Assembly (NCBI GenBank): GCA_017795005.1 | Contig: CP051242.1 | Span: forward strand, 1,116,001-1,180,000 | Source: Balneolaceae bacterium | GTDB lineage: Bacteria > Bacteroidota > Rhodothermia > Balneolales > Balneolaceae | Direction: 5' to 3' | Length of the DNA stretch: 64,000 nucleotides | Shown: piece by piece, positions 7,184 through 19,469 of the stretch | Layout: each line of letters starts with the position of its first letter | Numbering within the stretch: the first letter of the stretch is position 1 | Position numbers and translations under genes: made by a program | Notes under the pieces: generated by a model | What the model saw: the letters and a program-made list of their open reading frames with translations, nothing else | Told to the model about the DNA's origin: nothing | Databases searched by the model: none

Positions 7184-7837
7184 AAAACATTTGTTAGATA
7201 TCGGTATGAAAAGTACTGCTTTATTCACTTTCTCTACTTTTGTTCCGATACTGATCTTCATCAGCACAGGCGCCTGAACCAAAAACTCTCCGCTGCGAAA
7301 TCAGAATGGCGTTCGTGAAGAATCACCTGAATAAATCCAATGGTCCATGTTCATCTTATGGCATGAATTACGTTCTCCCGGTGTGGATTTATTCACCCTT
7401 TGGGTACGCTGATCCTTCTACTCTCTTTTCCCATTCTTATTTCTAATGCGGAATATTTTTCTCCAATGCCGGATTTTTTAGTCATCCTGAGGATACTTCC
7501 GAAGGATCTGCAAAACACGGTCCTCCCTCTGACTTCACGCAAGCGTGAAATCTGTCTCCCCTGTCTGCCGACAGGCAGGCCCCGAGGGGAGACACAGTAC
7601 GGCGCAAAAAGTCATCCTGAATACTGAATCTAGTTCAGCACAGGATCTTTAGAAAAGTCTTTGCGAGGAGTCCCGGGAATACGGGACGACGAAGCAATCT
7701 AATAGATCACATTAGAAACTCTCAGCCTTTAACAGACCTCCCCTGATTTCGAGTCAAATTCTGAGTTACGATAAAGAGCCTCCCCTCCTTAGCTAAGGAG
7801 GGGATAGAGGGGAGGTTGAAAAGTGTTCTCAGAGTAA
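7184..7837. other. intergenic repeat mosaic
   Basis: No gene is visible. The left third (7184-7440) shows nothing I can name. From about 7459 it consists of repeat modules also seen at 5162-5616, a CACGCAAGCGTGA palindrome near 7538 (related to one near 49725), a GTCTGCCGACAGGCAG hairpin near 7563, and the second long repeat copy. Confidence 0.55.
7645..7824. repeat. long direct repeat, copy 2
   Basis: Bases 7731-7824 match 5522-5616 almost base for base, in the same orientation, and weaker similarity extends left to about 7645. It carries the same nested palindromes. The two copies flank tRNA-Tyr and the unknown 319-residue gene. Confidence 0.85.
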
Positions 7838-8311
7838 TCACTCAATCCTCTTCATAGAAAACACTTCCGTTCTTGTCTCGCCATTTTGTATGAGGCGCAA
7901 CCGGATTTCCATTTCATTTTCGGATTTGAGCTCGAAAGACAATCCTTTCATTTCCAGTTTGGTATCAGAGAAGCTGATCATCTCAAACCGGACCATATCT
8001 TCTTTTTCTTCCCAGGAGGTTAAATCGGGATTAAAATGTTTGAGACGGATTCCGTTTTCGTCCAATAACAGGAATTCGTAAAAGACGATCTTCCCGTCTT
8101 TATAATGCCGGTACATTCCCATCATGGTGCCGTCTACAGGAAGTGACCAACTTTCCTCGGAAACTCCTCCAAAACCGTCTCCGACCCAAGTCCCGGCCAG
8201 CCATTGGTAATCCTCAATCCTGAACTCTGCGGATGTATTGGGTTCTGTTTCTAAAATAGGACTAAAAGAAAGTCCTGCTAAAAGGGTACATGCGATAATG
8301 ATGAATTTCAT
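7838..8311 (-). CDS. exported DUF6265-like protein
   Basis: A 157-residue protein with an N-terminal Sec signal (MKFIIIACTLLAGLSFS). After it comes the pattern I associate with DUF6265: 'DYQWLAGTWVGDGFGG', a Trp-rich start near residue 34, then 'GTMMGMYRHYKDGKIVFYEF'. Such proteins form a lipocalin-like beta barrel of unknown role. No lipobox is evident, so it is probably periplasmic. It ends next to the repeat copy at 7824 and is divergent from the AT-rich operon at 8433. Confidence 0.75.
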   Translation of the reverse strand: MKFIIIACTLLAGLSFSPILETEPNTSAEFRIEDYQWLAGTWVGDGFGGVSEESWSLPVDGTMMGMYRHYKDGKIVFYEFLLLDENGIRLKHFNPDLTSWEEKEDMVRFEMISFSDTKLEMKGLSFELKSENEMEIRLRLIQNGETRTEVFSMKRIE

Positions 8312-8432
8312 ACTGTGATTGGATTAGTTCATATTCACTAGTATGACAAATGGAAGGGGAGTGTGGGGACAGGTATTTTTTATTTAAAGAGTTATATGAT
8401 TGTTCAAATTTTATTAAAAATGACACTTACTT
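8312..8432. promoter_or_regulatory. divergent spacer that should hold the promoter of the four-gene operon
   Basis: This 121-base, AT-rich spacer separates the DUF6265-like gene from the methyltransferase operon. A decoy ATG at 8420 opens only seven codons. I cannot place promoter boxes with confidence. Confidence 0.3.
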
Positions 8433-9755
8433 TTGGGAGATAGTTTTTTTATTAATAATTTAAATTGGTATTTAAACTTCTACAAAAAAAACATGGACTT
8501 ACTACATTCCGAAATTGGTTCAGCGAAAGATAATTTTAAAAGTCCTGTTCATAATTGGTATAAATTCACGGCAGGCTTTTCATATAAATTTGTAGATGGT
8601 ATAATAGAATTGGAAAATCTAAAAAGTGAAGAATCTCCAATTATTTTTGATCCTTTTTCTGGGTGTGGTACTACTCTCGTTTCTTGTCAAAAACATGGTA
8701 TTAAAGCTGTTGGCAATGAAAGCCAACTTTTTATGTTAGATGTTATAAATGCTAAGCTAAATTGGAACCTAAGTGAAGTAGAACTCATTGAGAAACTAAA
8801 TAACTTAAAGGGGCATGTTTTTTCTAACAAAGAAGGAGTAGAACAAGATTTTCATACACTTTTAGAAACCCTTTATACAAAAACTACTCTAACTACACTT
8901 TATACAATAAGAAATTTTATTAGAAGGTTTGAAAAAGAAGACATTCGGCTTTTTTTTAAATTGGCACTTAGTCAAACCCTTCATAAAGTTTCTATACATC
9001 CTATTGCTGTTCCATACATTTCGCGAAATAAGATTTTGAAGAATGAGAAATTACCTTGGGATGTTTTCGAAGATATTTTTAGAGGCATGATTTCTGATCT
9101 TATTGATTTAAGAGGCAAGAAGAGGACTTCTAGAGTATATAATCATGATTCAAGAAAAAAGAACCAACATATTAAATATAGATCTTGTGATTTATGTATA
9201 ACGTCTCCTCCATACTTAAATAATCTTGATTATGGAGAAGTTTCGAAAGTTCATACTCATTTTTTTGAAATAACAGATGATTGGGGTGATATAACAAATA
9301 AGGTTAGAAGAAAACTAGTAACAGGTTCTACTACACATTACAAAGAAGCAGAATTCAATACGAAAGATTATATGAGCTCTGAATTTGTAATAAAAAACAA
9401 AGAGATTGTGAATCGCTTAATGAAATTAGCCTCAAAAATTAAAAAAATATCTCAAGAACGTGCAGGGAAAAAAAGCTTTAATATTTTGATGCTTTATTAT
9501 TTCAAAGACATGTATGAGGTATTAAATGAAATAAGAAGAGTTTTGAAAAATGGGAGTAAAGCATATTTAATTTTAGGAGATTCAGCACCATACGGAGTGT
9601 ATGTAGAAACAACAAAATTACTTGGGGAAATTGCACTAAATTGTGGTTTTAGTTCATATGAAATAGAAGAAATTAGGTCAAGAGGTACTAAGTGGAAAAG
9701 TTTAAAATATCGACATTCTATTCGATTGAGCGAGAACCTATTAATTCTTGAATGA
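8433..9755 (+). CDS. DNA adenine-N6 or cytosine-N4 methyltransferase, alpha-type motif order
   Basis: This is an S-adenosylmethionine-dependent DNA amino-methyltransferase. The AdoMet motif I is DPFSGCGTT at residues 73-81, preceded by a motif X-like SPVHNWYKFTAGFS. The catalytic motif IV is TSPPY at 257-261. This order (X, I, long insert, IV) fits the alpha class, and the roughly 170 residues between could be the target-recognition region. TSPPY is more common in m4C enzymes, but base specificity cannot be read. The start is uncertain: TTG at 8433 (440 residues, frame closed at 8421) or ATG at 8493 (420 residues); both keep all motifs. It is the first gene of an AT-rich operon and overlaps the next by ATGA. 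No restriction endonuclease of a known type is adjacent. Confidence 0.88.
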   Translation: MGDSFFINNLNWYLNFYKKNMDLLHSEIGSAKDNFKSPVHNWYKFTAGFSYKFVDGIIELENLKSEESPIIFDPFSGCGTTLVSCQKHGIKAVGNESQLFMLDVINAKLNWNLSEVELIEKLNNLKGHVFSNKEGVEQDFHTLLETLYTKTTLTTLYTIRNFIRRFEKEDIRLFFKLALSQTLHKVSIHPIAVPYISRNKILKNEKLPWDVFEDIFRGMISDLIDLRGKKRTSRVYNHDSRKKNQHIKYRSCDLCITSPPYLNNLDYGEVSKVHTHFFEITDDWGDITNKVRRKLVTGSTTHYKEAEFNTKDYMSSEFVIKNKEIVNRLMKLASKIKKISQERAGKKSFNILMLYYFKDMYEVLNEIRRVLKNGSKAYLILGDSAPYGVYVETTKLLGEIALNCGFSSYEIEEIRSRGTKWKSLKYRHSIRLSENLLILE

Positions 9756-10765
9756 GTAAATATATAAGCTTAAATAATTCTGAGACAAAAAGGGTGCATT
9801 TTTTAAGTGATTTCGACTATCAAAAAGCGTTCGAAAAGGGTTGGGCTTACTCATTTGTATATCATTTTAAAGAAATTAGAGACGTTTTTTTAGTATTGAG
9901 AGAAATTGGATTTAGCAACCTTAAGGACTTTTCCAAAAAATTTATTGAAGAATTAAACGTAGAGCATATAAAAACTCCTTGGCACTCTAGAAGAATTTTA
10001 GAGCATATTAATGCGTTAGTTAATTTTGGGTTAGTTAGTCAGGAGGAAAAAAAAATCAAAGATTTTAGCTTTTTCAAAAATTCCGAAATTGGAGACCCTC
10101 TTACTGATTCGGATTTAGAAGATTTCAAAAGAATATTCTTCTCTTATTATAGATTCCAAGAGATTATGTCTTGGTTTATATCATTAGATACAGAGTTTAA
10201 AAAAGATTTTATAATTTCATTAAATGAAAAGGTAGTTAAGGATAAGTCTTCATTAATTTATACTTTTATTAGAGATAGCAGGTTTAATGATACGTTTCTT
10301 TCAGATCTAAAAAAGGATTCAACTGTCTACATAATTCCAAATTCAGAAGAAGATAAAAATGAACACTTAATGCGTTTTTGGGATATGTTCATTAAATGGG
10401 GTACAGAATTGTCCGTAATCGAAAAGTTCAGTTTAAAAAGTTATGATATTGAATTATCATTACCTCATAAAAGCCTTTCATGTGTATATTTTAAAAGAGA
10501 TTTAGAACCAGGTTTTAATCTCTATAATTATTTAAATGTTAATTATAATGAAAGATACATTGGCATCAAGGAACTAATATTTGATTTAATTAAGAAGTAT
10601 AGATATTCAATTAAAGATCTTCATAACGAAATAATAAAATTAGAGAGAGAAAAATTTGAAGAAATTAGTTTGCAGAGAACGTCGGAAAAGTTTTTGTTTA
10701 ACTCAGATTCGCTATTGTTACCAAAAGTTAATGACGCTTATGTCTCACATATTTTAAGATACTAA
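9752..10765 (+). CDS. unknown protein of the methyltransferase-ATPase-PIN operon, possible winged helix
   Basis: I do not recognise this 337-residue protein. It is cytoplasmic (no signal or membrane segment), very rich in Lys, Phe, Ile and Asp/Glu, and looks mostly helical. Residues about 75-100 (WHSRRILEHINALVNFGLVS) resemble the recognition part of a winged helix: a helix ending 'N-A-L-V-N-F-G-L-V'. The stretch RFWDMFIKWGTELSV near residue 212 recalls helical repair or defence adaptors, without a named family. Its start overlaps the methyltransferase stop (ATGA at 9752-9755) and its stop overlaps the ATPase start (TAATG), so the three are translationally coupled. Possible roles are an adaptor or DNA-recognition subunit; this is inference from context. 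Confidence 0.8.
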   Translation: MSKYISLNNSETKRVHFLSDFDYQKAFEKGWAYSFVYHFKEIRDVFLVLREIGFSNLKDFSKKFIEELNVEHIKTPWHSRRILEHINALVNFGLVSQEEKKIKDFSFFKNSEIGDPLTDSDLEDFKRIFFSYYRFQEIMSWFISLDTEFKKDFIISLNEKVVKDKSSLIYTFIRDSRFNDTFLSDLKKDSTVYIIPNSEEDKNEHLMRFWDMFIKWGTELSVIEKFSLKSYDIELSLPHKSLSCVYFKRDLEPGFNLYNYLNVNYNERYIGIKELIFDLIKKYRYSIKDLHNEIIKLEREKFEEISLQRTSEKFLFNSDSLLLPKVNDAYVSHILRY

Positions 10766-12087
10766 TGGAAAAAACAGACCAAATAAAAGAATTTTTAAAA
10801 TCGAGGGGTGTTTCAGCTGATACTGCTGAAAACTTGAGAAAATTTAATTTGTCATTTAATCCATTTCCAAAGTCTGGAATTTCGGATTTAAATATTAGTG
10901 ATAAAGTTATCAGCGATTTATCACTAATTGATGAAGAAGTTGAGAAAGAGTTACTAAGATTTGTAATAGACTCACTCTTTACTGAGAATCCAAATAGTAC
11001 AGATAACTATTTAAGTGCTTTAATTAGAGGTGATTATGGGTATGGTAAAACCCAAACATTACTTTATGCAAAATATTTTATTGAGTCATTTTCTTCATTA
11101 AGAGACGAGTTACATAGAAACCCATATGTAGTTTACATTGATAATCCAGGTGCAAAATTAACGGAGCTAATTGGGGCAATTGTGACACAAATTGGAGAAG
11201 AAAATTTAAAGAAGTATTTATGGAACGTTGTGATTTCATCTCTGAAAAAAGATGAAGGAATACGAAAAAAATTAACCTCACACATGCCACAAGGTTATAG
11301 TCTTTTTAAAAAAGATGACCTTGAACCATTCTCAGATTCAAATACTGTTAATTATAGGGCTTTTATAGATGCCTTCATTAAATTTTTACCTAATTCAGGG
11401 AAAAAGAATACCTTTTTGGAAGAATTAAAAGTGTATTCAATCGGAGCACTCACCAATGAATTTGAAAATATTACAATCTCTACTTATTTCTATGACTTTT
11501 TATCCGAGAAAATTGGTGTAAATAAAACTTGGGAAATTCTAACCGGAGGATCCAAAAATTTAGATAAAAAAGAAGTTTATATAATTAGAGCAATCGTTAA
11601 ACTTATTAAAAGCCAAGGATATACTGATTTTTTTATTTTAGTTGATGAGTTTGAGGCAGTAACAGCAGGTCGGTTAACGAATAAAGAAATTGATCAATAC
11701 ATTACTAATCTTAGGACTTTAATAGATAAAGAAAGAAACTGGTGTTCAATATTTGCAATGACTGGTTTTGCATTTTCAAAATTAAAGACAATGTCTCCTC
11801 CTCTTGCTGAAAGGATTAGTACTAGAATATTAGACTTAAAACCTTTGAATAAGGAAAGGTCTGAAAAATTAGTTCTTAATTACTTAAATCTTGCGAGAGA
11901 AGATTCAGATGATTTATATCCATTTGACAACTCAGGAATAGATGAATTAAGAAAAAAATCAAAAGGAGTACTAAGAATTTTTTTGAGGGGATGTTATAGT
12001 TTAATTCAAAGAGCAAGTGAGGGTCTCAGTGGTGATCAAAAAATTGATAAAGTATTTGTTGAATCGCATTATAAATTCGAAGAGTAG
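10765..12087 (+). CDS. AAA+ (Orc1/Cdc6-like) ATPase
   Basis: This is a 440-residue P-loop ATPase. Walker A is GDYGYGKT (residues 89-96) and Walker B is FFILVDEFE (289-297, with D294 and E295). A sensor-1-like AMTGFAF (331-337) and arginines in AERISTRI (349-355) follow, then a helical/winged-helix-like C-terminus with SKGVLRIFLRGC. The opening FNPFPKSGISDLN is a pattern I know from Orc1/Cdc6-like and BREX-type (BrxC/BrxD) ATPases that handle DNA. About 190 residues between the Walker motifs is longer than in simple AAA+ domains. In the operon it probably couples ATP hydrolysis to DNA remodelling or to loading the PIN protein. ATPase identity is safe; the subfamily is tentative. Confidence 0.85.
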   Translation: MEKTDQIKEFLKSRGVSADTAENLRKFNLSFNPFPKSGISDLNISDKVISDLSLIDEEVEKELLRFVIDSLFTENPNSTDNYLSALIRGDYGYGKTQTLLYAKYFIESFSSLRDELHRNPYVVYIDNPGAKLTELIGAIVTQIGEENLKKYLWNVVISSLKKDEGIRKKLTSHMPQGYSLFKKDDLEPFSDSNTVNYRAFIDAFIKFLPNSGKKNTFLEELKVYSIGALTNEFENITISTYFYDFLSEKIGVNKTWEILTGGSKNLDKKEVYIIRAIVKLIKSQGYTDFFILVDEFEAVTAGRLTNKEIDQYITNLRTLIDKERNWCSIFAMTGFAFSKLKTMSPPLAERISTRILDLKPLNKERSEKLVLNYLNLAREDSDDLYPFDNSGIDELRKKSKGVLRIFLRGCYSLIQRASEGLSGDQKIDKVFVESHYKFEE

Positions 12088-12106
12088 TAAAATTGAAGTC
12101 CGAAAA

Positions 12107-13195
12107 ATGGAGGAATGGAGTGATTCTGAGATAATAAAAGATTTTAAAGTAAAACTGTTTTTAGACACAAACATTCTTGTCTTTTTGGTGGACCATAAAT
12201 TTAAAGCACTCACTTACTCAATAAACTTTCTCAACGAGTTAAAATTTATTGAGCTTCTTTCATCTAGATTTGTTGTTTTTGAGTTTATGGGTGTTCGAAA
12301 AAAAGAGCATTATTGTAGGTTAGTTATTGATCAACAAGGAAAGTCTTCTTCTAATATTAAAGTTAATTACTCAAGTCTGATTAAAAATATTAGCAGTTTT
12401 AAAGATCACATTGGAGGAGATCAAGAATTTGAAAAACTCATTAAAAAAGTAAAAGTTGAAGTAGAAAATGAATTGGAATTAATTACAAAGGATTTCAATA
12501 TAGAATACTCAAATAATTTACTTCATGATGATTTATTAGCTCCAACTTTTGATGTTTGTTTATCAACTAAAATAAGTAAAGAAGATTCTCTGGTACTTCT
12601 TACGGCACTTTTCCCAAGTGAAACTATTACAGAAGAGAAAATATCAATACTAACAAAAGATAGTGGGTTTGTATCAGGGTATGATGAAAAAGTTGTCCAT
12701 CCAATTTTAGAAAATTATGATTTAGTATCTCCCAATGTTGAAAGTATTGAAGGCTTAAAAATCGAAAGTGGAATCAATATAAACCTCAGTCAAGATCTAA
12801 GCGAAAAACAAATAAAGGATTTTTGGGAGAAAAAAGTATTAGAGAAAATTTTATTAAACAACGAACATCTATTTCTTGGTAAGACGTTTGTACCAAGTAG
12901 CTTACCTGATAGTATTATCTGTTTTAAGCTAAAACCTAAAGTTGAACTAAAAGGAAATGTTTTTGTAACCATTATTTCAAAAAACTTATTGTTTATCTAT
13001 ACAAGTAAACACCCAATTGATGCATTTTGGAATAATGGAAATATATTGAAAAATACTTTTGTGTCTGATAATCCTGAAAATATTGCTTTTAAACTCCAAG
13101 TCGAAAGAGATGGAAAATGGGGCAATATTTCAAGTGAAATGACTAAAAAATTACGTAATGATGGGAACCTAGTTTTTCTTCATCCCGATAACTAA
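12107..13195 (+). CDS. PIN-domain (putative nuclease) protein with an unknown C-terminal domain
   Basis: This 362-residue protein begins with a PIN-type fold: KLFLDTNILVF (D20), an acidic residue in FVVFEFMG (E59), then SKEDSLVLLTAL (D160) and ISILTKDSGF (D185), the usual four acidic metal ligands. PIN domains are Mg/Mn-dependent nucleases, usually RNases, though relatives cut DNA. About 90 charged residues are inserted between the second and third ligands. Residues from about 210 to 362 form a second domain that I do not recognise. I choose the ATG at 12107, 19 bases after the ATPase stop; the frame is open to a GTG at 12017 inside the ATPase gene, but that extension resembles shadow sequence. 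As last gene of the operon it is the likely effector. No antitoxin-like partner is adjacent. Confidence 0.78.
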   Translation: MEEWSDSEIIKDFKVKLFLDTNILVFLVDHKFKALTYSINFLNELKFIELLSSRFVVFEFMGVRKKEHYCRLVIDQQGKSSSNIKVNYSSLIKNISSFKDHIGGDQEFEKLIKKVKVEVENELELITKDFNIEYSNNLLHDDLLAPTFDVCLSTKISKEDSLVLLTALFPSETITEEKISILTKDSGFVSGYDEKVVHPILENYDLVSPNVESIEGLKIESGININLSQDLSEKQIKDFWEKKVLEKILLNNEHLFLGKTFVPSSLPDSIICFKLKPKVELKGNVFVTIISKNLLFIYTSKHPIDAFWNNGNILKNTFVSDNPENIAFKLQVERDGKWGNISSEMTKKLRNDGNLVFLHPDN

Positions 13196-14511: not shown

Positions 14512-16008
14512 TTATTGACCGGTTTCGGGAGTATTTAGTGAGAATGGAATACCTGGAAAATCATTTAAATTCAGGGTAGGAATAGATGATCCTGTAACAA
14601 TATTTAATCTTTTGATCAATTCATTCGCAATCAATGCATTTCCACGGGCATTAAAGGTGTACCCATCGGCAGAGTAAATGCTGTATTGATCAAGTTTTGC
14701 TGATAGTTGCACTCCATCAAAAAAGAACTCTTCATCAAGGATTTTATTTATCTGGGTGTTAATGTCTATTAAATGTATCCGGTTTGATAATGCAGCGATA
14801 TCTGTAAGAATAAAATTAAAATCACTGTTTCTGCTTTCGATTACTTGTATCTCCTCTAAGGTAAGTACAAGGTTATCCGGTAACGGAACAGCTCCTCCCA
14901 ACTGGTTTTCATAAAAAATAAATGGTTCGAGATTATATCCCAAAAGCTCACCTTCGGACATTTGTCGCCACTTATCTAAGATAGTCCCATCATTTAATTG
15001 AGCATCAAATAAAGTTTCGTCATGAATTACTCTGGCACGGCTTATTGGATTCGGAAAATTATCCAGGTCAAAATTTACTCTTGGTCGTAGCGGTCCGCCA
15101 GGATTTTCATTGTAATTATATCGTGCAACCCAACTATTGAATGTAGAGTAATGCGCTTCAAGAAAACCAACAAATCCGATGTCAAAAATCTCCAATTCGA
15201 AAAACCAGCTAAGTGTGTTGAAATAAGGAGTTTTCAGTATTTCAGGAAAATTAATAACAAAAATCTGGGCATCTGTTTCATTAACAAAACGGTTTACTAT
15301 TTCCGAGTAAACAGATTGAAAATCAGCATTAGATATAAGGTCCTGATCGGTTATGGAATTAATATCCGGATTGTCATCTCCGGAAGCCCCATAAAAGGCG
15401 TAATTGAATAGTTCATCTTTTCCTAAATCAATAATAATGATTTCAGGATTCTGAGAAATAATGGCGTCTACCGGATTTTCTGTCAGGCCGGTGACTCTTC
15501 CAACATAGGGGTTGTCATTGGATAAGTTAGCAGGATTATTAAGGTCACCAAGTGTTAATCCGGGGAAGGAAAAATTATTTAACTGGTTGACACCAAATGT
15601 CCAGTCTGCAAAAGGTTCCGCATCCACTGTTCTTCGGTTAGGATAAAAATCGGTAGATGTTTCGAAGTAGAGATCTATAAATCTGCTTTGGTCATTCATG
15701 AAAGGTTCTGCATTTACTCCCACTTCAGACTCAACAACTGCCTGTGTGAATACAGAATCGTTCAGAATTTCTTCAATTTGCGAAGCCAGTAGATTTGGGT
15801 AAGAATACGATTGGCCGGTTTTGTACAGTGCTCCATCCATCAAACCTGAACTGTAGGTTCCACCTAATACATACATTTTAGAATAATCGATGGAAGGAGA
15901 TACTTCATTGGAAGTTGGAGTTATATCGGCAGGTGTGTACTCGCACGAAGTCAACCCGTAGATAACAAGAAGAGTGAAAAGACTGTATTTGATTGTTGAC
16001 ATACTCAT
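14512..16008 (-). CDS. SGNH/GDSL-hydrolase-like lipoprotein with lost catalytic residues
   Basis: This 498-residue lipoprotein (lipobox LTSC, Cys 22) has the overall layout of Bacteroidota SGNH/GDSL lipoproteins: 'DGALYKTGQSYSYPNLLASQ' follows block I, and 'NARGNALIANELI' ends block V. The key residues are missing. Block I, usually G-N-S-L, reads GGTYSSG with Thr in place of Ser. Block III, usually G-N-N-D, reads LGKDELF. Block V, usually D-G-x-H-P-N, reads DGYTFN without His. It is therefore probably a binding or structural protein, not an esterase. The start at 16008 is 2 bases after the stop of the TonB receptor gene, so the pair should work together at the outer membrane. An ATG at 16002 is an alternative start. 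Confidence 0.8.
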   Translation of the reverse strand: MSMSTIKYSLFTLLVIYGLTSCEYTPADITPTSNEVSPSIDYSKMYVLGGTYSSGLMDGALYKTGQSYSYPNLLASQIEEILNDSVFTQAVVESEVGVNAEPFMNDQSRFIDLYFETSTDFYPNRRTVDAEPFADWTFGVNQLNNFSFPGLTLGDLNNPANLSNDNPYVGRVTGLTENPVDAIISQNPEIIIIDLGKDELFNYAFYGASGDDNPDINSITDQDLISNADFQSVYSEIVNRFVNETDAQIFVINFPEILKTPYFNTLSWFFELEIFDIGFVGFLEAHYSTFNSWVARYNYNENPGGPLRPRVNFDLDNFPNPISRARVIHDETLFDAQLNDGTILDKWRQMSEGELLGYNLEPFIFYENQLGGAVPLPDNLVLTLEEIQVIESRNSDFNFILTDIAALSNRIHLIDINTQINKILDEEFFFDGVQLSAKLDQYSIYSADGYTFNARGNALIANELIKRLNIVTGSSIPTLNLNDFPGIPFSLNTPETGQ

Positions 16009-16010
16009 GA

Positions 16011-19000
16011 TCAAAATATGGATGGGTCGTATGTGAAAGAAGCGAAGACAATAGTACCAATGTTTGGTCCGGCAAAGACATCGTAATAATTTTGAACTCC
16101 AAAATTGGTAACTCCAAATTTTACCATAGAGGTAATGGTTGGAATGCTAATATTAAATTGAAAGTCGAGGTGACTGTAAGACTCTATTCTTCCATCAAGG
16201 AAAGAGCTTTGCCAGTCATGCGCTGCACGATACTTGTAATTAATTTTAAAGCCTACGTCCGGGATAATTTCACGGCTCCCCCATTCAAAGTTGATTTTAA
16301 AGGGAGGTGTATTATATCCGGGAATAACGGGATCATCAGGATCTGTAAGAAGTTGAGTCCAGGTTCCGTTTGCGCCTGTAAAGAAATTTCCTGAAACGTA
16401 TCTAAGATCGAAGGCCATCCCCTGAGCCACAACATTGCTGGTAGAGTTGCTATATACGTGTATCACTTCACTTTCAGTACCGATAACAGACTGTGTAGCG
16501 GAAGCATAAAGGTCAACAGATGGGGAGGTTCTTGGCTTTACAAATCTTTTTATTCCAATAAAATCTCTGTAGTAGCTGAAGAAATAATTCAGATCAAGAT
16601 AGAGGTTTTCAGAAAAAAGCCTTCTCATACCAAACTCAAAAGCCCATACTTTTTCAGGCTTAATTTCTACCAGGTCTGATTCAGTGACTAACCCATTTTC
16701 AATAATTGGAAGAAGTGCCAGTTCTGCCTGCCTTCTTCCTCTTGGAGGTCCTTGCGAAACACCCGTATCAGGCGCGGCTAAAGAAACCTGTTGGTAATAT
16801 TCATCAACAGTCTGCTGAAAAAATGAATTATCTTGAATTTCATAGGGATCCGTGATCAGGCTTAGCCCCCCAAGCAAACGGGAAGTTCCCGTGTTAGTAT
16901 TTAAGAATTGTTCTCTGACTGTAGGGAATCTGAAACTGTTCTGCGTTGAGAAACGGAAGAACTGTATACTTGAAGCACGATAGTTAAAAGCCACTTGTTG
17001 GCTCGATGCAACAGGAAAGCTTTCATTTTTATCAAGCCGTATTGTAGCCGCCATACTTAAAGAGTTATCCAGAAACCCGGTCTCATATTGAAGAAAGCTT
17101 CCAACTTCAAAATTGGTGATGTCATTTCCAAGAGTGTCAGGATAGATGGTGCCATCCGAATCCAGATCATAGAATCTCCCTGAAGCTCCGGTAGTAAATC
17201 CGGTTTCCCCGATTTTTTGAACCATGTCAACATGGTATAGGTTCGAATTGTCCTTAATTCCGGCGCCTTCATCAAAGTCAGTAATTCGAATAAGTTCATC
17301 CACTTTTTCATCAAACCGCTCTGTTCCCGGTTCATATCTCGGAATAGCTGTACTGTTAGCTAATAAAGTTCTTCCTCCGTCGGCAAAGCGTCTTGCAGCA
17401 CTTAGACTGCCGGCAGGAATTCCTGAAGTTGCTATACCTCTTGTAAAAGCAATTTCAAAATCCCGAAACCAATCATTATCCGCTTTTGCCAGCCGGGTTA
17501 ATTCTTCCGAAAGGCGGTTTACATTGTAGGATGTACCTGAGCGTTGTGTTGTGGTGTAAGCAGAGGCTTCAAAGTTTTGGATAACCAGTGAAGTTTGCAG
17601 TTGGAATACTTCAAAATCTTGTAGTCTGATTCGACTATCACTGGTGAAGAGTGTATTAGTTATCCCATATTTCCCATCAATAGAAAATCTGGAGGAGGAG
17701 GAAAATTTATAAGCGAGTTCTGCGGCTAGTTTAGCAGTGAAGATATCGTAATCAACAAGTGCGGGTTCTTTATATCCCGTTCGGGTTGTAGGTGCAATAT
17801 CTCCTGTAGCATTCCCTTGTTCATCAACATCTGTTCTAAGAATAGCAAAACGTTCATCACTATATACGTTTACGCCATTATATCCCGCAATATTATTTCT
17901 ATCCAACGTAGCTCTACCCGGACCAATGTTATCGAAGTTATCGGCTCTCCAATCTGATCCTCTTGTAAAGCCGCCGGTAACTTTATATCCAAATTTAGAT
18001 TTAATGGTATTCGCATACCTGAATGATGCGTCGGTAATGGTACTTCCCTGTAAACCAAGGGCGGATCCTCCACCTGAATTCAAGCTATGAGCACCTGATT
18101 TTACGAGAAATGTGAGTCCGCGATCGATAAACATATCTCTAGAAGAAGTTAGTAAAACCCCATTTATAGCACTGGAGCCATACCTTGCTGATGCAGACCC
18201 AACTACTAAATCAATTGAAGAGATGTCCAACTCAGAAGGTCCGAGCAAGTTTCCAATGGGAAATCCTAATCCAGGAATTTGATTGTCTACTCCATCGGTA
18301 AGTTGAAGGAACCTGGGATTTGCACCTGTATTAAATCCTCTGGTACTTACCGATTGCATGTTCATACTCTGAGTGGCAATGTCCACTTCTCTGAGTGATG
18401 AAACCAAATCAAAAACACTAAATGAAGCTACTTGTTGAACATCTACTGAACTTACCCTGTCGAATGTTCTTGGGACACTTAATTCTTCTTCAGCTACTAA
18501 ACTAGCCTGTACTACAATTTCACCGGATTCAAATGATTGTTGTCTCATTCGGGCTTCAAAACCCGAAGTATTAGCTCTGGTAATTCGAATTATTCTGGTC
18601 TCATAAGAAACGTGGGAAATCTGAAGTTTGTATGGCAATGACATTTTAAAATTCAGATCAAAATTTCCTTGTTCGTCAGTAGCGGTGCCAATAGGCCGAG
18701 ATAGGATTACATCATCATTATCAGATAGAATTTGGACGGTTGCTAATTCAATAGGCATACTTCCTGAGAAATCGAAGATGGTACCTGAAATTGAAATTTG
18801 GGTATTCTGCGAACTGATAAAGACTTCATTAAGTAGATCCCTTTCCTCGGGGTATTCTACCAAGATATCCATTTCAAGATAGTCCGGATGTTTGAAAGAA
18901 ATATAGAAAGATCTTCCCGGCTGATTAAGGTTGATTGTTAATGGCAATGAAAACATTCCATTTTCATCAGAACGGATTTCACGGCTTGTACCTGATACTG

Positions 19001-19469
19001 ATCCGGGTCTTCCGGAATATGAAACTCTGGCTCCTGTAATCGGTTCGGAGTTTCCTCTTGATAAAAGTATCCCATTGTAATTAAAGTCGATAACTGAAGT
19101 CTCCATAACTACGGAGAGCGGCTCCCGTGTAAAAGACTGAATAGTAATTTTTTTTCCAATGAAATTGGGATGAGAAACAAGCACCCGAAAAGGGAAGGAG
19201 AAATTTAACCCTGTAAAATTGAATTCACCATTAGCATCCGTCTCAGTAATGAGTGTTGTTCCGTTAGAACTACTTAGCCCAAATAGTTCAACGGTGGCTC
19301 CTGCGATTGGTGTTCCATCTGAAGATGTGACTTTACCTGAAAAGTCTTCCGCAGAAATAGAGCTATTAAGCTCAGGATTTTCAAAATAGTGTGTACCTGT
19401 AGAATAACTCTGTGTGTTTAATAGTAATACCGTAGCGATGACCAATACGGAGAAGCGGAATAAATACAA
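16011..19469 (-). CDS. TonB-dependent outer-membrane receptor with three carboxypeptidase-like regulatory domains
   Basis: A 1152-residue outer-membrane receptor. After a Sec signal (FRFSVLVIATVLLLNTQSYS) come three successive carboxypeptidase-regulatory-like (beta-sandwich) domains: about residues 44-115 (GKVTSSDGTPIAGATVELFG), 130-215 (GNSEPITGARVSYSG) and 225-300 (ISGTIFDFSGSMPIELATVQ). A plug domain follows near residues 350-460 (RGFNTGANPRFLQLTDGVDNQ, then VVGSASARYGSSAINGVL), then a beta barrel ending in the aromatic terminus YDPSIF. Most relatives have one regulatory domain; three is unusual. Aromatic and acidic barrel strands do not reveal the substrate. No ATG lies before the signal peptide; TTG at 19469 is the best start, and the frame stays open to 19556. 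It is coupled to the following lipoprotein gene. Confidence 0.9.
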   Translation of the reverse strand: MYLFRFSVLVIATVLLLNTQSYSTGTHYFENPELNSSISAEDFSGKVTSSDGTPIAGATVELFGLSSSNGTTLITETDANGEFNFTGLNFSFPFRVLVSHPNFIGKKITIQSFTREPLSVVMETSVIDFNYNGILLSRGNSEPITGARVSYSGRPGSVSGTSREIRSDENGMFSLPLTINLNQPGRSFYISFKHPDYLEMDILVEYPEERDLLNEVFISSQNTQISISGTIFDFSGSMPIELATVQILSDNDDVILSRPIGTATDEQGNFDLNFKMSLPYKLQISHVSYETRIIRITRANTSGFEARMRQQSFESGEIVVQASLVAEEELSVPRTFDRVSSVDVQQVASFSVFDLVSSLREVDIATQSMNMQSVSTRGFNTGANPRFLQLTDGVDNQIPGLGFPIGNLLGPSELDISSIDLVVGSASARYGSSAINGVLLTSSRDMFIDRGLTFLVKSGAHSLNSGGGSALGLQGSTITDASFRYANTIKSKFGYKVTGGFTRGSDWRADNFDNIGPGRATLDRNNIAGYNGVNVYSDERFAILRTDVDEQGNATGDIAPTTRTGYKEPALVDYDIFTAKLAAELAYKFSSSSRFSIDGKYGITNTLFTSDSRIRLQDFEVFQLQTSLVIQNFEASAYTTTQRSGTSYNVNRLSEELTRLAKADNDWFRDFEIAFTRGIATSGIPAGSLSAARRFADGGRTLLANSTAIPRYEPGTERFDEKVDELIRITDFDEGAGIKDNSNLYHVDMVQKIGETGFTTGASGRFYDLDSDGTIYPDTLGNDITNFEVGSFLQYETGFLDNSLSMAATIRLDKNESFPVASSQQVAFNYRASSIQFFRFSTQNSFRFPTVREQFLNTNTGTSRLLGGLSLITDPYEIQDNSFFQQTVDEYYQQVSLAAPDTGVSQGPPRGRRQAELALLPIIENGLVTESDLVEIKPEKVWAFEFGMRRLFSENLYLDLNYFFSYYRDFIGIKRFVKPRTSPSVDLYASATQSVIGTESEVIHVYSNSTSNVVAQGMAFDLRYVSGNFFTGANGTWTQLLTDPDDPVIPGYNTPPFKINFEWGSREIIPDVGFKINYKYRAAHDWQSSFLDGRIESYSHLDFQFNISIPTITSMVKFGVTNFGVQNYYDVFAGPNIGTIVFASFTYDPSIF

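Follow-up and report, generated by a model that had tools for sequence, protein, structure and literature searches.

Two adjoining genes on the reverse strand of the window (the whole stretch of 64,000 nucleotides of Balneolaceae DNA analysed here) encode a TonB-dependent receptor and a lipoprotein (Table 1). When the lipoprotein is read from the ATG at 16008, it begins 2 bases past the receptor stop, as an earlier note on this DNA had stated and as re-reading of the open reading frame confirms; an alternative TTG start at 16014 (frame 14512-16014, reverse strand, 500 aa) gives a 4-base overlap with the receptor stop. Under either start the genes adjoin on the same strand, which supports the receptor-lipoprotein coupling claimed in that note.

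Table 1. Features of the receptor-lipoprotein locus (positions in the window)
Feature	Position	Strand	Description	Basis
TonB-dependent receptor	16011..19469	-	1152 aa from TTG; several N-terminal carboxypeptidase-regulatory-like domains, then plug and barrel	ORF, Pfam, model
N-terminal carboxypeptidase-regulatory-like extension of the receptor	18510..19340	-	aa 44-118 and 227-320	Pfam stretches
Plug domain of the receptor	18156..18479	-	aa 331-438	PF07715, E 1e-8
SGNH-fold lipoprotein without catalytic residues	14512..16008	-	498 aa from ATG 16008	
Lipidation Cys24 and C-x-Y motif just after (CEYTPAD)	15937..15945	-	lipobox-like Cys	
Thr53	15856..15858	-	at the block I nucleophile (Ser) position	codon ACC, re-read by script
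Gly152	15559..15561	-	block II Gly, retained	alignment and codon
Asp200	15415..15417	-	at the block III oxyanion (Asn) position	codon GAT
Asp450	14665..14667	-	block V Asp, retained	alignment and codon
Thr453	14656..14658	-	at the block V His position	codon ACC

The Pfam matches of the receptor are CarboxypepD_reg, CarbopepD_reg_2 and Plug; PF07715 scores above its cut-off and PF00593 was not reported. The best match of the receptor model (pLDDT 80.0), among those listed, is to BtuB over residues 325-1149 (Z 36.4), and BtuB3, BtuB1 and XusA, all of which have lipoprotein partners, are among the 50 Foldseek matches listed. No match titled SusC is among the 50 listed in either receptor fold comparison, which excludes nothing. 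The receptors of L042, L043, L044, L046 and L047 align to the window receptor only from about residue 220 onward.

The lipoprotein models with high confidence (pLDDT 89.9) as an alpha/beta/alpha SGNH fold, and its closest match among those listed is the GDSL esterase 5xtu (Z 18.1, rmsd 3.2, 235 residues aligned), which bears out the overall SGNH layout that had been read from the sequence. The 50 fold matches listed are all SGNH/GDSL-type enzymes, by their titles or by what we take to be their family; Foldseek gave no match for the model at E<=0.001 (best 1.1e-3). The protein had no match at E<=1 to Pfam or NCBIfam models, SusD-like profiles included; another gene, SusD-like to the eye, gave no SusD match either. 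A PDB sequence search at E<=1 returned nothing for the window lipoprotein or for one FadL-linked relative, and a family profile found only weak SGNH matches there. The PF00657 cut-off is passed by the intact relatives L110, from Balneola sp. EhC07, and L055, and also by L132, which has lost Ser and Asn; the paralogue L047 falls below it and L104 has no match.

The window lipoprotein is missing the block I Ser, the block III Asn and the His of the block V Asp-x-x-His that mark an active enzyme, and the Asp that comes after the oxyanion Asn is replaced by Glu201. The loss of catalytic residues described earlier holds at the codon level, with Ser changed to Thr53 and His to Thr453. At block III the Asn is indeed gone, but its replacement is Asp200 and not Lys as had been proposed: that assignment was off by one, since in 'LGKDEL' the variable x of GxND is Lys199. 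The anchors around the blocks that are common to dead and intact copies are G51, G57 and D450, and in alignment A3 (38 rows) G51, G57, S448 and D450 do not vary, whether the row is dead or intact. These anchors, and an Asn loss common to the whole clade of the window copy in the tree, speak for more than a chance pattern. Realignment of the window lipoprotein found no alternative with an intact Ser-His pair, and none can be rebuilt because the protein has only three His, none of them well conserved (retained in 4, 3 and 5 of the 18 members of its clade).

In the lipoprotein tree, the window copy belongs to a clade of 18 rows with support 100/100, hereafter the dead clade. The Asn is lost in 18/18 members, the Ser in 14/18 and the His in 12/18, Ser being retained in four and His in six; the Asn place is occupied by D, S, E, A, Q or T. 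The earlier note had turned on whether the losses are conserved or close relatives carry normal residues only, and with the Asn gone from every clade member the former is the case. The frames of all 18 are full-length (487-535 aa); one further copy (L045, in G066), assigned to the clade by score and excluded from the lipoprotein tree, is interrupted by a stop. The 15 receptors that go with the main dead clade form a single clade (SH-aLRT 100) that matches the lipoprotein clade, and the mean identity of the 15 members that have a receptor is only 33%. There is little sign of decay: the ratio of lipoprotein to receptor divergence is 1.30 for dead pairs and 1.21 for intact pairs. Twelve positions are conserved at >=80% in the dead clade but at <40% in intact receptor-linked copies, and no column of the window protein has His in >=40% of the clade. 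Judged from these relatives, the losses are old and maintained. Sequence searches of the window's own genome found two family members, both dead, and a distant intact copy may have escaped them; the window's genome is not alone in this loss.

Members of the same lipoprotein family also lie directly behind FadL-type outer-membrane channels in Bacteroidota. Losses are found in 27 of 133 receptor-linked copies versus 0 of 57 FadL-linked copies, one of which ends before block V. Counted as losses are L171, L209, L222 and L226, which retain Ser and His but have an altered Asn (in L222 and L226 the block II Gly is Ala as well), and L162, whose receptor is remote (40 bits in the receptor profile). 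In the phylum draw the losses number 5/36 versus 0/38 (Fisher p 0.023), in the order draw, where the window protein and the dead-clade profile served as queries and distant copies are therefore under-represented, 8/44 versus 0/16 (p 0.095), and in both draws pooled 13/80 versus 0/54 (p 0.0016), all uncorrected for kinship. In three of the five phylum-draw losses, Ser and His are intact and only the Asn is altered. Few independent loss events underlie these counts. Frames shorter than 280 aa were dropped and copies with identical last 200 residues were merged across all sets; because merging shifted some copies from one draw to another, each draw was counted anew by itself. Two peptide patterns of the dead clade led to 97 confirmed stretches, of which the best 80 are the named loci; because the patterns came from that clade, the dead share among these loci is no frequency. 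The gap in profile scores is likewise partly built in, as 10 of the 11 top copies had gone into the profile. From the matches to the window protein and the dead-clade profile, 59 distinct regions were taken, which are not all matches; from the non-Rhodothermia matches listed, 80 regions were taken, and 23 lower-scoring ones and unlisted ones were left out.

The pairing itself is tight, the median gap in the 133 receptor-linked copies being 13 bases (118 at <=40). Sixteen of 206 copies have no receptor or channel directly upstream: four lie at contig ends, seven have an opposite-strand neighbour, four follow another gene and one is behind another SGNH copy; losses occur in four of the 16. Since many Bacteroidota across the phylum have an intact SGNH lipoprotein behind a homologous receptor, the receptor-lipoprotein pair is probably older than the loss of catalysis.

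A second, separate lineage with losses consists of six Algoriphagus rows (support 100/99), joined by Pararhodonellum at a weak fork (84/40). Ser and Asn are lost in 7/7 and the block II Gly in 6/7, and the remaining 19 of the 22 most conserved columns are retained in 7/7. As the tree places them, Algoriphagus and its kin lost Ser and Asn separately from the window's clade. Elsewhere in the tree, five Bacteroidales members retain the His and have Asp instead of the Ser. G002 and G005 each carry dead as well as intact copies, and G002 also holds two further lipoprotein copies without a receptor directly upstream.

Just after the lipidated Cys, the C-x-Y motif is found in 22/27 receptor-linked copies with losses, in 20/106 without losses and in 0/51 FadL-linked copies with a recognisable Cys (six more have none); the CEYTPAD of the window deviates from the usual C-x-Y-[DE]-F-P. 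One paper (PMC12578637) takes at least two acidic residues among the six that follow the Cys as a surface-export signal. The window lipoprotein has two such residues after Cys24, and the signal is present in 103/106 receptor-linked copies without losses versus 15/27 with losses; because it is rarer in the latter, it is less certain that the dead form is exposed at the surface.

On balance, and with modest confidence, we favour the view that the lipoprotein is a non-catalytic partner of the receptor, likely at the cell surface, which captures cargo or caps the barrel and which derives from an active, receptor-coupled SGNH lipoprotein. An active SGNH lipoprotein already tied to this receptor family would be the ancestor; the nucleophile, the oxyanion Asn and the His would then have been dropped, while the post-Cys tail stayed, as did parts of the former pocket loops. 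The resulting pseudo-esterase, presumably inactive, would capture its ligand at the cell surface and, in contact with the receptor, pass it to the barrel or close over the barrel as a movable lid, much as BtuG, XusB or SusD do, on an unrelated fold. In the portions available of the papers on these systems, BtuG, XusB and SusD are lipoproteins that act on TonB receptors (PMC10404256, PMC13142918, PMC7618045). The binding role suggested in the earlier note is the most economical reading, although cargo binding is inferred, and its 'new type of uptake lipoprotein' is plausible.

A lipoprotein that folds, holds or closes the receptor and binds no cargo itself would leave traces identical to those seen here: tight gene coupling, matching clades and a conserved post-Cys tail. 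Surface lipoproteins do take part in Bacteroidota barrel assembly, according to the available text of two papers (PMC12611786, PMC12578637). However, in the BtuBG and XusAB pairs, as far as the available descriptions go, the lipoprotein is the cargo binder, and parts of the old pocket remain conserved; we regard such an assembly or stability factor as unlikely. Rather improbable, in our estimation, is a protein that is still an enzyme, its pocket using other residues (e.g. Thr53 or a shifted base) on another substrate. Some active SGNH families also manage without the block III Asn, as stated in the accessible part of one source (PMC9487903), the active-site loops are in part the same in every dead and intact row of alignment A3, and the five Bacteroidales members have kept the His with an Asp at the Ser place. 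Against this, each of the three His of the window is conserved in at most five of the 18 clade members, no column offers a His shared by as much as 40% of the clade, and the Asn place varies among six residues.

The co-occurrence of dead and intact copies in G002 and G005 would suit a protein that regulates an active SGNH copy of its own cell or competes with it, but the two members found in the window's genome are both dead, even if a distant intact copy may have been missed, and we give this explanation a very small chance. Least credible is a gene that is decaying after its function was lost, an idea already disfavoured: the interrupted copy in G066 and the slightly higher relative divergence of the dead pairs point that way, whereas the full-length frames of the 18 tree members, despite the low mean identity of those with a receptor, and the newly conserved positions of the dead clade argue against it.

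The favoured role, that of a non-catalytic receptor partner, has its nearest parallels in Bacteroides. BtuB-BtuG (vitamin B12) is likewise a receptor with a lipoprotein, and the window receptor model fits BtuB best; in the available account of BtuBG, receptor loops hold the BtuG linker behind the lipidated Cys, a possible hinge, and the window family has a conserved tail at this place. However, BtuG is described there as a seven-bladed propeller whereas the window lipoprotein models as SGNH, and the window receptor has extra N-terminal domains. XusA-XusB, for xenosiderophore uptake, is a similar pair in which XusB is reported, in the text available, to recognise the cargo and pass it on, but XusB is a DUF4374 propeller there. 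SusC-SusD systems and utilisomes also have a lipoprotein lid on a TonB barrel, and enzymes can join the SusCD complex according to the accessible portion of the source; in contrast, the window lipoprotein models as SGNH and no SusC/SusD-like gene adjoins the window pair. With the SGNH/GDSL hydrolases (PF00657) and the intact receptor-linked lipoproteins, the window lipoprotein shares fold, block layout and descent, unlike them lacking the nucleophile, oxyanion Asn and His; the FadL-linked copies, of the same family, differ from it by the absence of catalytic losses. That the FadL-linked lipoproteins are the BamH of BamG-BamH was thought unlikely, given the BamH fold as described in the part of the source available; the window lipoprotein, for its part, models as SGNH.

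Genes that look SusC/SusD-like by eye adjoin several relatives of the window pair; with Pfam, one gave a SusD-like match at E 0.012 and another candidate none. A small conserved lipoprotein (~160 aa) lies near the pair in five relatives. It was rejected as a third member, having a homologue elsewhere in the window's genome beside a gene SusD-like by eye, and for that reason it seems to go with SusCD.

In summary, the two lineages suggest, with changes counted on a tree on which loss and gain are indistinguishable, that SGNH enzymes have turned at least twice into non-cutting receptor partners, which probably serve to catch cargo for the receptor. More tentatively, receptors capped by an SGNH esterase may form a further class of lipoprotein-capped TonB receptors in Bacteroidota, whose ancestral cap would have held the cargo and trimmed an ester during import, the chemistry being dropped at least twice to leave a pure binder. 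In the literature covered, mostly outside subscription papers, no SGNH lipoprotein is described as a TonB receptor partner, and the lids in the available text of the papers cited are SusD-type or propellers. If the view is true, an SGNH lid that exists in living and dead versions on homologous receptors constitutes a natural experiment on cutting versus catching, and the dead caps would show directly that the receptor needs docking and capture, not cutting. There is also a warning for annotation, since the label 'SGNH/GDSL hydrolase' misleads in two lineages or more, and the widespread intact pair may point to a nutrient, so far unrecognised and perhaps bearing an ester, that is imported via TonB receptors.

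The window's genome is a single contig of 3.75 Mb, in which a second receptor-lipoprotein pair (contig C1, about 1209297-1213642) is also dead, that is, its SGNH lipoprotein has lost the Ser, Asn or His that intact copies keep. For the window receptor, Pfam recognises carboxypeptidase-regulatory-like domains and a plug, and in its model (pLDDT 80.0) residues 325-1149 fit BtuB with a Z of 36.4. The window lipoprotein gave no Pfam, NCBIfam or PDB sequence match at E ≤ 1; its model (pLDDT 89.9) has the SGNH fold and superposes on a GDSL esterase (Z 18.1, rmsd 3.2), and because only 235 of 500 residues are aligned, about half of the chain lies outside the classical SGNH core of that esterase.

Features in and around the window pair (window coordinates)
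Feature	Position	Strand	Remarks
TonB-dependent receptor	16011-19469	-	ORF; lipoprotein gene comes next
Lipoprotein	14512-16008 from ATG; 14512-16014 from TTG	-	ORF directly behind receptor
Four-gene cassette	8433-13195	+	DNA methyltransferase, two proteins without matches, one weak BrxD match

Alignment with intact relatives places Thr53, Gly152, Asp200, Asp450 and Thr453 at the five SGNH positions. It bears out the claims of the earlier note that the block I Ser is replaced by Thr and that the block V His is absent (Asp450 is kept); the Lys (residue 199) which that note read in place of the block III Asn falls on the variable x of GxND, and the Asn place is held by Asp200. The protein has just three His (288, 331 and 414), kept in 4, 3 and 5 of the 18 members of its clade, so that no Ser-His pair can be rebuilt, and a check for an alternative intact pair found none. 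By descent, the window lipoprotein belongs to the SGNH hydrolases, but it does not have the residues by which an active member is recognised.

In a lipoprotein tree of 70 rows, from which catalytic blocks I, III and V were excluded, these 18 members form the main dead clade (support 100/100), comprising Balneolaceae, the Bacteroidetes MAG L103, Bacteroidales MAGs and L231. All 18 have lost Asn, 14 have lost Ser (its place is taken by T, D, G, V or R) and 12 have lost His, which all six Bacteroidales rows keep. A second dead lineage, in Cyclobacteriaceae, consists of six Algoriphagus rows (100/99), which Pararhodonellum (L174) joins at 84/40; here Ser has become Gly or Ala and Asn has become Ser, and the tree neighbours Belliella and Echinicola are intact. 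The fewest changes on the tree are five for Ser, six for Asn and one for His, counts that give no direction, and single or odd changes occur in copies L162, L171, L209, L222 and L226. We read these sequences as indicating that catalytic loss probably arose separately at least two times. Among 56 receptors, the 15 belonging to the main dead clade likewise form one clade (SH-aLRT 100), whose inner order differs from that of the lipoproteins at L046, L103 and L231. Five Bacteroidales MAG copies (L104, L106, L107, L109 and L113) combine Asp at the nucleophile place with a kept His. At locus L040 of genome G002 (7608-12619), one receptor is followed by three dead lipoprotein copies in tandem, the first two of which are separated by a small frame on the opposite strand.

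The dead copies show little sign of decay, as far as can be judged from sequence. Of 22 columns with an identity of 97% or more across 160 intact copies, 19 are kept in 7/7 copies of the Algoriphagus type, which lost S53 and N200 in 7/7 (losses that help to define the group) and G152 in 6/7. The main dead clade has also lost G40, P92 and N147, outside the triad, and G152 in half of its members; 12 positions reach at least 80% in this clade and stay below 40% in intact copies with a TonB receptor directly upstream (receptor-linked), most clearly N300, K348 and I446. The lipoprotein:receptor divergence ratio is 1.30 in dead pairs vs 1.21 in intact pairs, and constraint in the former would thus be at most slightly weaker.

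The window protein had matches in 75 of 128 genomes of the order (E ≤ 0.001), and a dead-clade profile in 79 of the 244 class genomes (E ≤ 1e-5), where 11 copies in 8 genomes scored at least 607 bits and the next 256, a gap that arises partly by construction. A scan of named genomes with peptide patterns from the dead clade gave 79 loci (from the best 80 of 97 confirmed stretches), and the phylum draw gave matches in 147 of 394 genomes (E ≤ 1e-25). Merging left 206 unique copies, which we grouped according to the gene upstream. Receptor-linked copies numbered 133: all five SGNH positions are present in 104, Ser, Asn or His has been lost in 27, and the remaining 2 are cut off ahead of block V. 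A FadL-type channel precedes 57 copies (56 with all five positions, 1 cut), and no catalytic-residue loss was found among them where the blocks are covered. Losses in receptor-linked vs FadL-linked copies, compared with kinship ignored and stemming from few independent events, were 5/36 vs 0/38 in the phylum draw (Fisher p 0.023), 8/44 vs 0/16 in the order draw (p 0.095) and 13/80 vs 0/54 in both together (p 0.0016). In three of the five phylum-draw losses, Asn alone is changed among Ser, Asn and His. An SGNH lipoprotein directly behind a FadL-type channel is a widespread arrangement (L051, L055, L059, L065, L073, L082 and others).

Among receptor-linked copies, 22 of the 27 with losses and 20 of the 106 without carry C-x-Y, mostly C-x-Y-[DE]-F-P, behind the lipidated Cys; none of the 51 FadL-linked copies whose Cys can be recognised does. 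The window tail, CEYTPAD, is a diverged form. In BtuBG, receptor loops hold the linker between Cys and propeller, which may be a hinge (PMC10404256), and by analogy the C-x-Y tail may dock on the receptor. At least two acidic residues within six after Cys occur in 103/106 receptor-linked copies without losses and in 15/27 with losses, the window protein having two; this sparser distribution in dead copies counts against easy export.

The cassette near the pair resembles a defence or modification cassette of no assigned type, its methyltransferase matching PADLOC MTase_II (1.7e-47) and Pfam N6_N4_Mtase, and one protein matching BrxD weakly (1.2e-4). Five relatives (L041, L042, L043, L044 and L046) carry a conserved lipoprotein of ~160 aa close to the dead pair; in the window's genome it lies at G000:C1:3213246-3213701, adjoining a gene that is SusD-like by eye; two copies tested had no Pfam match over the cut-off. 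At L132, L140, L174 and L222, receptor-SGNH pairs lie downstream of frames that we take to encode CoA-transferase subunits, and a GldC-like gene (PF19937, tested in L132 only) is also ahead of them.

The likeliest scheme, towards which we lean modestly, is that a receptor-coupled SGNH lipoprotein turned into a non-catalytic partner of the TonB receptor. The modelled fold, the residue loss, the conservation, the gene coupling and the matching clades are the observations on which it is built. An active SGNH lipoprotein would first have become the receptor's partner, and its catalytic residues would then have been lost where capture alone was enough; the protein would have kept its fold, its docking tail and portions of its pocket loops. 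The present protein would be inactive, exposed and in contact with the receptor, capturing cargo and moving as a lid. The receptor model resembles B12, siderophore and heme receptors among the structure matches listed, which hints at a small molecule as cargo. Lipoprotein-capped TonB receptors are known in SusCD (PMC7618045), BtuBG (PMC10404256) and XusAB (PMC13142918), and by analogy the window lipoprotein may work like a lid; in the descriptions consulted, none of the three has an SGNH cap, whereas the window lipoprotein models as SGNH. In our literature search, which covered mainly open-access papers, we recognised no paper on an SGNH lipoprotein paired with a TonB receptor. As a system, the principle of the capped TonB receptor is already known, and what would be new is an SGNH cap.
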